Assembly (NCBI GenBank): GCA_015709495.1
Contig: CP054189.1
Coordinates: forward strand, 434,001 to 498,000
From: Chthonomonadaceae bacterium
GTDB taxonomy: Bacteria > Armatimonadota > Fimbriimonadia > Fimbriimonadales > Fimbriimonadaceae
Direction: 5' to 3'
Length of the DNA stretch: 64,000 nucleotides
This document shows, piece by piece, positions 34,014 through 37,284 of this stretch (its first letter is position 1; each line of letters opens with the position of its first letter). The notes below the pieces were generated by a model. That model saw nothing but the letters and a program-made list of their open reading frames with translations, was not told where the DNA came from and did not search any database. The position numbers were made by a program, and so were the translations under genes.

Positions 34014-34076
34014 CCCCCTCGCCCGTCCGAGGGAGAGGGGGCCAGGGGGTGAGGGATTCTCTCCTGGTCGCCCGCG
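34014..34076 (+). repeat. 63-bp CCCCTC/GAGGGG repeat, copy 1
   Basis: Nearly identical to 35392-35454 and in the same orientation; only two or three bases differ. It contains the imperfect hairpin CCCCCTCGCCCGTCCGAGG followed by GAGAGGGGG. One copy lies on each side of the IS3 element. Confidence 0.8.
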
Positions 34077-34155
34077 TCTGACTCGCAGAACAGACCGGAC
34101 ACTGAGGCCCGGGCGCCCCAGCCTGCCTAGAACAGCAGACCAGGAAAACGAAGGA
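34076..34155 (+). repeat. 80-bp repeat, copy B, with degenerate REP hairpin
   Basis: Second copy of the 80-bp unit, directly abutting the 63-bp copy 1. It holds CGTCTGACTCGCAGAA then CAGACCGG, a REP-like hairpin with two mismatched positions. It stops six bases before the IS3 left end. Confidence 0.8.
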
Positions 34156-34209
34156 GTGCCCTGCGGCGAAATTTGTGGACACCTACTTGTTCTGTCAGGA
34201 GAAAATAGG

Positions 34210-34521
34210 ATGGTGTCTCGCCGTAGTTTCAGTCGTGAGTTCAAGTTAGGCATATGCCAGGAGATCGTTTCTGGCTTGCGGTCAAAGGCTCAGGTGTGCC
34301 GGGAGCATGGTTTGTCTCCGGGGATGCTGGATCGTTGGGTGGACCAGTTCAAGGTCTTGGGTTCGGATGCGTTTCCGAATTCCGGGCGTTCGGGTTCGGG
34401 GATGGTGCTGGACCGTACGAAGGAGCTGGAAGCGCTCGTGGGTCGTCAGGCTTTAGAGATCGAGTTTTTGAAGGCCGCACTAAAAAAAGGGGAGGAACTC
34501 CGGGAGAAAAGGCAGCCATGA
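34210..34521 (+). CDS. IS3 transposase OrfA
   Basis: 103 residues from ATG 34210. The N-terminal helix-turn-helix (REFKLGICQEIV, KAQVCREHGLSPGMLDRWV) binds the terminal repeats, and the C-terminal heptads (LEALVGRQALEIEFLKAAL) form the leucine zipper used for multimerisation. The stop TGA overlaps the orfB ATG (ATGA). The AAAAAAA run at 34482-34488 allows a -1 shift into the orfB frame to make the OrfAB transposase. Confidence 0.92.
   Translation: MVSRRSFSREFKLGICQEIVSGLRSKAQVCREHGLSPGMLDRWVDQFKVLGSDAFPNSGRSGSGMVLDRTKELEALVGRQALEIEFLKAALKKGEELREKRQP
34482..34488 (+). other. Programmed -1 frameshift site
   Basis: Seven adenines fall as A AAA AAA in the orfA frame, the classical IS3 slippery heptamer. 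After slipping one base back, the ribosome reads straight into orfB. Family knowledge says the fusion protein is the active transposase. Confidence 0.75.
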
Positions 34522-35357
34522 TTCGCGCTCTTCGCCCGGAGTTTCCGTCCCTTTCGGTTCACCGCATGTCCCAATTGGTGGGCATATCTCGCTCTCTGGT
34601 GTACGCTCCGCAGAGGCAGAAATCGCGTCCCGAGTTGCTGTTGGCGATCGAGAGGCTGGTGGTCTTGTTCCTGGGTTACGGCTACCGCCGGGTTCGGCGC
34701 GCGCTTCAGCTCGAGGGCGTTGCGGTCAGCGAGTATGCAGTTCGCAAGCTCATGCGCGAGCACGGGCTGATGGCGCGAAGGCCGCGCAGCCGCGGGGTGA
34801 CCCGGCCGGGCGCTCGGGATCGCCGGGCAGGCAACCTGCTCAAGGGCCTCAGCGCCTCGGCCCCCAACCAGATCTGGGTCGCCGACACCACGCGGGTGCG
34901 CACCGACTCGGGGCCGCTCTACCTGGCCGCCCTCATGGACCTGTATTCGCGCAAAGCGGTGGCCTGGCACCTCTCGCGCCGAAACGACGAAGCCCTGGTG
35001 CGCGATTGCCTCTTGAAGGCTCTGCAAACCCGCAAACCGAACCTCGGCTGGATTCACCACTCCGACCAAGGCTCGACCTACACCGCCTCCGGATACATGA
35101 GGCTCATCCGCGACGCAGGCGGCAAAACCAGCTTCTCCGCTCCCGGAAAACCGCGCGACAATGCCCACATGGAAAGCTTCTTTCGGACCGTGAAGCTCGA
35201 AGAAGTCGACCGCAACCGCTATGGGTCCTTCCTCGAAGCCCAAGCATCGCTGGAGCATTTCATCGATGCAATCTACAACCAACAGCGCATGCACTCAAGC
35301 CTTGAGTACATGAGCCCCGACCAATTCGAATCTCGCCCAACAAAGGAGGCGCGATGA
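34518..35357 (+). CDS. IS3 transposase OrfB (DDE integrase core)
   Basis: 279 residues from ATG 34518, though the functional product is probably the OrfAB fusion. An HTH_21-like segment (YGYRRVRRALQLEG, YAVRKLMREHGL) precedes the rve integrase core. The catalytic acids are Asp in WVADTTRV, Asp in HHSDQGSTY and Glu in NAHMESFF, with exactly 35 residues between the last two. MHSSLEYMSPDQF is the conserved C-terminal end. No stops or frameshifts break the frame, so the element may be active. Confidence 0.93.
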   Translation: MIRALRPEFPSLSVHRMSQLVGISRSLVYAPQRQKSRPELLLAIERLVVLFLGYGYRRVRRALQLEGVAVSEYAVRKLMREHGLMARRPRSRGVTRPGARDRRAGNLLKGLSASAPNQIWVADTTRVRTDSGPLYLAALMDLYSRKAVAWHLSRRNDEALVRDCLLKALQTRKPNLGWIHHSDQGSTYTASGYMRLIRDAGGKTSFSAPGKPRDNAHMESFFRTVKLEEVDRNRYGSFLEAQASLEHFIDAIYNQQRMHSSLEYMSPDQFESRPTKEAR

Positions 35358-35391
35358 AGGTGTCCAACAATTTCGCCGCATTTCAGAGATT

Positions 35392-35454
35392 CCCCCTCGC
35401 CCGTCCGAGGGAGAGGGGGCCAGGGGGTGAGGGATTCCCTCCTGGTCGCTCGCG
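35392..35454 (+). repeat. 63-bp CCCCTC/GAGGGG repeat, copy 2
   Basis: Second copy of the 63-bp unit, eleven bases beyond the IS3 right end. In copy 1 the unit follows an AACGAAGGA-ending 80-bp repeat; here that partner is replaced by the IS and a short unique stretch. Confidence 0.8.
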
Positions 35455-36365: not shown

Positions 36366-36458
36366 GCCCTCTCCCAATATCATAGCAGGAAACTCCACAC
36401 CTGCACTTCGAAGCCAAGAAAGTTCGGATCATGAAGCCGCCCATCTCCCGCCGGGTGC

Positions 36459-36486
36459 CCCGGTCTGACTCGCAGAGCAGACCGGG
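36459..36486 (+). repeat. REP-type hairpin upstream of the RAYT gene
   Basis: Perfect 9-base arms CCCGGTCTG (36459-36467) and CAGACCGGG (36478-36486) with an inner CTC-GCA-GAG mini-stem and one bulged A. It is preceded by GGGTGC. The bulge on the 5' side gives the repeat a direction, which here is opposite to the two copies downstream of the RAYT gene. Confidence 0.8.
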
Positions 36487-36507
36487 TATCACAACACCAG
36501 TCCAACC

Positions 36508-37029
36508 ATGGAACGAAGTCGATCCAATAAGCGAATCGAATTGGCTGGGGACTCCAGATTCCTGACTTTCTCCTGTTACCACAGGCTCCCCCTCTTAAGG
36601 AGCGACTGGGCGAAGGACGCCGTCGTCGAGTATCTCGCCCACACGAAGAGCCGCTTGGACTTCCGGCTCTACGCTTTTGTGGCGATGCCCGACCATTTGC
36701 ACTTGCTGCTTCGCCCAAACGCCGAGGTTGCAAACGTGCGCCGCATCATGTCGGCGCTAAAGTCGAGGACGGCTACGGCAGTATTGGAGCGTCTGAAGCG
36801 CGAAAGCCCTTCGTTGGCCGAACGGGTTAGGGACGCCAAGGGCCAGTATCATCTTTGGCAGCCAGGGGGAGGTTACGATCGCAACATTCACTCTCACGAC
36901 GAATTCCTTGAGAAAGTGAAGTACATTGACGAGAATCCGGTGCGGCGCGGACTCGCCGAACGTGCGGAAGACTACGTCTGGTCCTCTGCGGGATCGGCGG
37001 CACTGGTACGAGACCCGTGGGAGGACTGA
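36508..37029 (+). CDS. REP-associated tyrosine transposase (RAYT)
   Basis: 173 residues from ATG 36508. It belongs to the Y1/IS200-like HUH superfamily: the motif AMPDHLHLLLRP carries the metal-binding His pair, and the catalytic Tyr is in KVKYIDENPVRRGL, the typical RAYT ending. RAYTs are single-copy domesticated transposases thought to move or copy REP hairpins. A REP hairpin lies 22 bases upstream and two inverted copies lie just downstream. The frame is undamaged, so the enzyme could be active. Confidence 0.9.
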   Translation: MERSRSNKRIELAGDSRFLTFSCYHRLPLLRSDWAKDAVVEYLAHTKSRLDFRLYAFVAMPDHLHLLLRPNAEVANVRRIMSALKSRTATAVLERLKRESPSLAERVRDAKGQYHLWQPGGGYDRNIHSHDEFLEKVKYIDENPVRRGLAERAEDYVWSSAGSAALVRDPWED

Positions 37030-37059
37030 GATCCCTCCCATGCTCGACGGCTGAGTCGT

Positions 37060-37087
37060 CCCGGTCTGCCCTACGGGTCAGACCGGG
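37060..37087 (-). repeat. REP-type hairpin, downstream copy 1
   Basis: Same 9-base arms as the upstream hairpin; the inner stem is CCC-TAC-GGG and the bulged base is T on the 3' side, so this copy is inverted. It is the core of a 59-bp unit at 37037-37095. Confidence 0.8.
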
Positions 37088-37174
37088 GCACCCGAGACCG
37101 TGTCTGCTTCACCCGTTTCTGGAGCCAAGGCCGTGGGTGAACTGAGAAACCCCCATGCTCGACGGCTGAGTCGT

Positions 37175-37202
37175 CCCGGTCTGCCCTGCGGGTCAGACCG
37201 GG
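37175..37202 (-). repeat. REP-type hairpin, downstream copy 2
   Basis: Core of a second 59-bp unit (37152-37210) that differs from the unit at 37037-37095 at a single base, in the hairpin loop. Both units carry the same flank TGCTCGACGGCTGAGTCG, and 56 unique bases separate them. Confidence 0.8.
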
Positions 37203-37284
37203 GCACCCGAAACTGGGTCTCTCCCTGCTCATCCTTGCCCCGCCACTGGCACAATCAAGGGTCGCGCAGCCCCGACCTCCCAGG

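Follow-up and report, generated by a model that had tools for sequence, protein, structure and literature searches.

Does a short transposase gene in a bacterium of the Fimbriimonadaceae, with hairpins on both sides, form a REPtron, that is, a single-copy HUH/Y1 transposase (RAYT) with a cognate family of REP hairpins? We analysed a window of 64,000 nucleotides (positions 434001-498000 of genome G000, one contig of 2,897,187 bases, 2.90 Mb) and give this reading a probability of about 90%. It is carried by the gene family, the fold and the conserved catalytic residues, by the inverted flanking REPs, by an intergenic hairpin family tied to the RAYT, by compensatory changes in the stem that leave the bulge in place and by copy-number differences between conspecific genomes. 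The features of the locus, in window coordinates, are:

34072..34099, + strand: decayed REP copy with 3 mismatches (its ortholog in the same-species genome G094 has 2), from the pattern search
36453..36458, + strand: GGGTGC tag of the upstream REP (GTGC at the hairpin foot), a candidate guide; the most conserved flank core is GGGTG
36459..36486, + strand: REP hairpin preceding the RAYT, its tag on the side away from the gene, from pattern and folding; one of ~26 genome copies
36508..37029, + strand: RAYT / TnpAREP, 173 aa, from NF047646, Pfam Y1_Tnp, the AlphaFold model and conserved residues
37060..37087, - strand: REP hairpin 1 downstream, inverted, from pattern and folding
37088..37093, - strand: GGGTGC tag of downstream REP 1 (GCACCC on the + strand), from the sequence
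37175..37202, - strand: REP hairpin 2 downstream, inverted, from the pattern; a direct repeat of REP 1 in a 115-bp unit
37203..37208, - strand: GGGTGC tag of downstream REP 2, from the sequence

The open reading frame at 36508-37029 matches the NCBIfam model NF047646 (REP_Tyr_transpos) with 97.7 bits, above the cut-off of 80, and Pfam Y1_Tnp at 3.6e-9. Its AlphaFold model has a pLDDT of 93.4. In a fold search the best PDB match of this model is 4er8_A (E 1.5e-9), followed by the ISDra2 and IS608 transposases; 4er8, the E. coli TnpAREP in complex with a REP hairpin, is also the sole PDB relative by sequence (E 0.006). The protein has the HUH motif DHLH with H63 and H65, WQ at 117-118 and Y139 in YIDENP (Y---NP), and H63, H65, W117, D124, N143 and P144 are invariant across 36 relatives. 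By analogy with this enzyme family, we infer that Y139 is the catalytic tyrosine and that H63/H65 hold the metal. The combination DHLH + WQ + YIDENP does not exactly match that of any TnpAREP subclass (2.2, 2.4, 2.5, 2.7) of PMC6006769 in a comparison of motifs rather than of trees. The gene is single-copy per genome and has the same gene neighbours in G094, where the ortholog (97% identity) differs by 8 synonymous and 5 non-synonymous changes (pN/pS 0.19). An earlier note on this DNA, made from the sequence alone, had called the frame an HUH transposase of the RAYT kind; the model score over the cut-off and the fold closest to 4er8 support this assignment to the REP-associated tyrosine transposases (RAYT/TnpAREP), and the hairpin data below support a REP family of its own.

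Three hairpins of 28 nt each flank the gene. Read alike, they are CCCGGTCTG-A-CTC-GCA-GAG-CAGACCGGG, CCCGGTCTG-A-CCC-GTA-GGG-CAGACCGGG and CCCGGTCTG-A-CCC-GCA-GGG-CAGACCGGG, with a 9-bp stem, a single bulged A in the 5' arm, a 3-bp inner stem and a 3-nt loop, and CGGGTGC precedes all of them. DNA folding yields the same structure (z -2.7 to -3.3). The positions of all three and their design of arms, inner stem and bulge agree with the earlier note, as does the inversion (upstream copy +, both downstream copies -); the distance of 22 bases that it gave between upstream hairpin and gene is in fact 21 bases to the ATG. A search of the window at ≤3 mismatches returned seven strand-matches in four places against 0.03 expected, and none of 100 dinucleotide shuffles reached seven. 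Flanking inverted repeats with a score ≥36 were found at 2 of 403 G094 genes of similar length, one being this RAYT, for a background of 1/402. Because only one of the 402 control genes has them, such repeats are non-trivial against the background. An alternative pairing of the tag with the 5' arm (CCGGG-TGC-CCCGG) is possible in G000; it is not conserved in genome G091 of another genus and was set aside. Upstream of the gene, an IS3-type element (~34158-35391, integrase core ORF 34254-35357) lies between the decayed REP and a CCCTCACC repeat, and its site is empty in G094.

Far from there being few or no further hairpins, a whole-genome search (≤2 mismatches) retrieved ~26 distinct copies in the 2.90 Mb, and the reversed control pattern gave 0 matches. 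The earlier note had suggested counting intergenic bias and orientation pairs. The bias is complete in the 1.99 Mb of G094 that were read, with 30 of 30 copies intergenic (simple gene caller; coding fraction 0.90); copies in arrays are not independent, yet well over ten separate intergenic sites are represented. Orientation gave a divided answer. Copies are inverted across the RAYT, and elsewhere in G000 they are single or, as close neighbours, always head-to-tail in the same orientation, as in a five-copy array spaced at 102-107 bases (G000 1422051-1422497). These head-to-tail clusters are not REPINs or BIMEs, whose repeating unit is a pair of REPs in inverse orientation.

Across the 26 copies the tag is GGGTGC in 16, GGGTGG in four and GGGTGA in two, and in none is it GTAG. 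The GGGTG core is the best-conserved flank: the 5' flank GCCGGGTG is kept, the base that follows is variable and the 3' flank shows no conservation. The GGGTGC flank that the earlier note proposed as a candidate guide region is a conserved tag with a fixed GTG core and a variable last base. The window copies and 16 of the 26 genome copies have GTGC at the foot and fall outside the GTAG/GTGG foot rule (PMC3733652, PMC6006769). Judged by these counts, the candidate guide would mostly be GTG[C/G], not the published GT[A/G]G. The exact tagged hairpin had 0 matches in 2.9 million viral contigs, and an Rfam scan of the window returned two tRNAs only and no REP family.

We compared the distribution of the hairpins with that of the enzyme. 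The same-species genome G094 has ~30 hairpin places. In 60 relatives none had more than two weak places: there were 0 in G081 and G017, and single chance-level places in others without a close RAYT. The earlier note had named equal abundance in genomes lacking this RAYT as an observation against the pairing; we found near-absence in the sampled relatives, including the same-genus genome G001, whose closest RAYT is ≤39% identical and which has one 3-mismatch place. Genome G091, which belongs to the same taxonomic family but a different genus, encodes a RAYT that is 56% identical and has its own hairpin family of ~45 places, CCCGGCCTG-A-CCC-GGA-GGG-CAGGCCGGG; of the 23 copies read, 20 carry a GGGTGG tag. 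Relative to the window family, its stem carries a compensated change (GGTCTG -> GGCCTG) and retains the bulged A; therefore, enzyme and hairpin evolve together. Over 31 distinct copies from three genomes, 95.2% of cells are paired, against 28-55% when the partner is slid, and pairs alternate between TA and CG (16 and 9 copies at pair 12-29; 16 and 12 at pair 18-24). On either side of the G081, G082 and G083 RAYTs (53-59% identity) stand CCCGGTCTG or CACGGTCTG hairpins, whose top is longer and whose bulged base, at the corresponding position, is a G. The six RAYTs of the window, G094, G091, G081, G082 and G083 form one fully supported clade. Neighbour genes of the window RAYT were not found beside those of G081, G082, G083 and G091; since the 53-59% orthologs are non-syntenic, it is co-occurrence and not gene position that links enzyme and hairpin there. 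A stretch of ~10 kb in G091 (G091:C12:19845-30234) holds >10 copies of its REP in a single orientation.

The two conspecific genomes differ in their copies. The 115-bp REP units beside the RAYT number two in G000 and three in G094, and where G000 has a single copy at 2068601, G094 has two, spaced by 256 bases. At G000 1662870, a 127-bp stretch with a REP that belongs to the hairpin family of the second RAYT (see below) is present and is absent in G094, with the boundary CCCGG at the REP tag. Copy-number and indel differences of this kind show turnover; they do not by themselves show transposition. Between G000 and the 1.99 Mb read of G094 we found no clean empty site of a single REP of the window family, and a candidate at 343161 was rejected as its junction flanks align too poorly to call an insertion. 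IS copies (~1.06 and 1.2 kb) are repeatedly seen next to REPs (G000 1525952, 1840724, 2234717 and 408675; G094 2072656 and 1275132), and the 1422-kb REP array marks a break in synteny between the genomes, as though REPs served as targets for insertion and as sites of recombination.

A change in tandem copy number requires no transposase, and many copies lie in tandem arrays with the repeat CCCTCACCCCCTGGCCCCCTCTCCC. The hairpins might thus be intergenic repeats of an ordinary sort, such as terminators or tandem repeats generated by recombination, with the RAYT among them by chance. We regard this as very improbable: flanking inverted repeats are present at 82 of 102 RAYT-family loci, whose ORFs came from an HMM search that covered this phylum, Planctomycetota, Acidobacteriota and further groups, but at only 1 of 402 control genes. 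From genome to genome the hairpin family also tracks the RAYT, in presence and in sequence, so that co-occurrence already disfavoured this explanation. Still harder to credit is a mobile IS200/IS605-like element of which the hairpins are the ends. The enzyme superfamily is the same and the fold search ranks the ISDra2 and IS608 transposases next after 4er8, but the IS200 model NF033573 scores 30.4 bits against a cut-off of 55, the motif is YIDENP, not Y---Q, the RAYT is single-copy and at the same position in both conspecifics, and the hairpins are dispersed without the gene.

An alternative that we consider unlikely, though of appreciable weight, casts the RAYT as a domesticated host enzyme and the hairpins as the regulatory or DNA-processing sites that it uses, with copies that no longer move. 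It is compatible with most of the REPtron reading and differs only on present mobility. A single copy under constraint (the pN/pS given above) and intergenic hairpins would fit it, as would the published view that RAYTs are domesticated and that REPINs replicate slowly (PMC8049555), whereas the unequal copy numbers of the conspecifics and the absence of the family from G001 speak against it. The REPtron reading, which we prefer, has its own difficulties. Besides the lack of a clean single-REP empty site for the window family in the comparison above, replication slippage or deletion could explain both the tandem copy number and the 127-bp indel without the RAYT; ~26 copies is low for REPs, which usually exceed 100 per genome (PMC2817692); the last base of the guide is mostly C, against the published GT[A/G]G; clusters run head-to-tail and are not inverted REPINs; and the gene is non-syntenic in the 53-59% orthologs.

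For the activity of this REPtron we draw on E. coli TnpAREP and the IS200/IS605 family, from which strand-specific binding, cleavage, strand transfer and REP mobility would be expected. E. coli TnpAREP binds single-stranded REP via GTAG and the bulge, cleaves at CT 5' or 3' of the REP and performs strand transfer (PMC8266576). By analogy, the window RAYT would recognise one single-stranded REP strand via the 5' GTG[C/G] tag and the bulged hairpin, and Y139 would cut beside the REP with a metal on H63/H65. The enzyme would remain joined to the 5' phosphate and rejoin the strand elsewhere, and REP copies would spread in this way into intergenic DNA at a low rate. Arrays would then expand and contract by tandem recombination, which may be that of the host.

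We compared the system with those described. Like the E. coli REPtron (rayT/yafM, TnpAREP, 4er8; group 2 / subclass 2.2), it combines an HUH/Y1 enzyme with Y---NP and a long REP with unpaired stem bases, with REPs in both orientations around the gene, and the E. coli guide contacts W94, Q95 and acidic E100 correspond to W117, Q118 and D124. The proteins are only 19% identical in a structural alignment, H101 and R104 are replaced by R125 and H128, and the E. coli tail with G160/E161 is absent from the window RAYT. The relaxed fourth base of the tag fits the absence of these tail contacts. The tag is GTG[C/G] against GTAG in E. coli, the REP has a single bulged purine where that of E. coli has a two-base mismatch, and the ~26 copies compare with ~600. 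With group 3 / subclass 2.5 REPtrons (Stenotrophomonas, Pseudomonas, Marinomonas) the window RAYT has in common DHLH, WQ, D + R at the guide positions, the lack of an E. coli-type C-terminal tail and several RAYTs per genome with separate REP families; it differs in YIDENP versus YI[VI]ANP and in a long bulged hairpin with GTGC/GTGG versus short perfect palindromes with GTAG/GTGG. RAYTs of Planctomycetota and Acidobacteriota (L046, L050, L054-L083) belong to the same or a neighbouring protein clade and also have hairpins in opposite orientation with a GTG[C/G] tag, but their stems are unrelated and the Acidobacteriota enzymes have RYYDFN where GGGYDRN is found here.

The window is thus confirmed to hold a known kind of system, with a modest variant of the tag that departs from the published rule and with head-to-tail clusters. 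The earlier note had thought such systems best described in gamma-proteobacteria and had not met one in this lineage. Reports of REPs span 8 phyla, Chloroflexi and the PVC group among them (PMC3733652), and ~25% of species are said to have TnpAREP (PMC8266576). To find a RAYT with REPs here is therefore unsurprising in itself; the locus does extend the described RAYT/REP pairs to an unstudied lineage. The orthologous pairs, with proteins 53-97% identical, differ by stepwise changes in the stem and bulged base of the hairpin and in a base of the tag. These pairs are natural material on how hairpins are read and how the tag sets the cleavage site, which is partly known and for three proteobacterial models only (PMC8266576).

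The described REP superfamilies are GTAG and CGTC (PMC3733652), and GTAG or GTGG is the rule by which REPs are found (PMC6006769); the main texts of the published REP/RAYT work examined make no mention of a GTGC tag. GTG[C/G] was called at the hairpin foot of 40 of 71 loci with GGGYDRN- and RYYDFN-type enzymes and of 0 of 14 with the FRS and FDR types. The automatic stem finder misplaced T-G-paired stems in Acidobacteriota REPs, and its tag counts are lower bounds. Loci with this tag group together on the tree (none of 500 shuffles gave a value as low), although near-copies alone can produce clustering, and L123, one GTGS entry in the labelling, is a false call. We propose tentatively, at somewhat short of even odds, that the window RAYT belongs to a broad group of REPtrons in this phylum, Planctomycetota and Acidobacteriota with a GTG[C/G] rather than a GT[A/G]G tag. 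Their enzymes would do without the E. coli C-terminal tag-contact residues, so that the fourth base could vary and might steer cleavage to a non-CT dinucleotide, in a third tag class beside GTAG and CGTC. In the Acidobacteriota loci L054-L083, RYYDFN RAYTs have on their flanks long hairpins whose tags are of the GGGTGCCCC type, and several stems have a T-G pair; we found no description of these hairpins as REPs.

G000 has six Y1 loci: the window RAYT, 2478782, 2159625, 861143, 2604625 and 1843113. The second RAYT, at 2478782 (L022, G000:C1:2477282-2480743), has its own inverted hairpins CACCCCAAA..TTTGGGGTG with the tag GGGTGC, and copies of its hairpin adjoin copies of the window REP. Unrelated inverted hairpins flank the genes at 2159625 and 861143; 2604625 is a weak relative and 1843113 an IS200-type transposase. 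The repeat CCCTCACCCCCTGGCCCCCTCTCCC with its hairpin continuation (window 34031-34055 and 35409-35433) has 15 exact copies in G000, and no cognate transposase was found for it. It lies about a dozen bases from many window-REP copies, in a composite unit of ~100 bases. The RAYT-like gene G000:C1:2159625 (L020) has arrays of GGGAGCGCACGCGTCCCGCGTGGCC-type repeats on both flanks.
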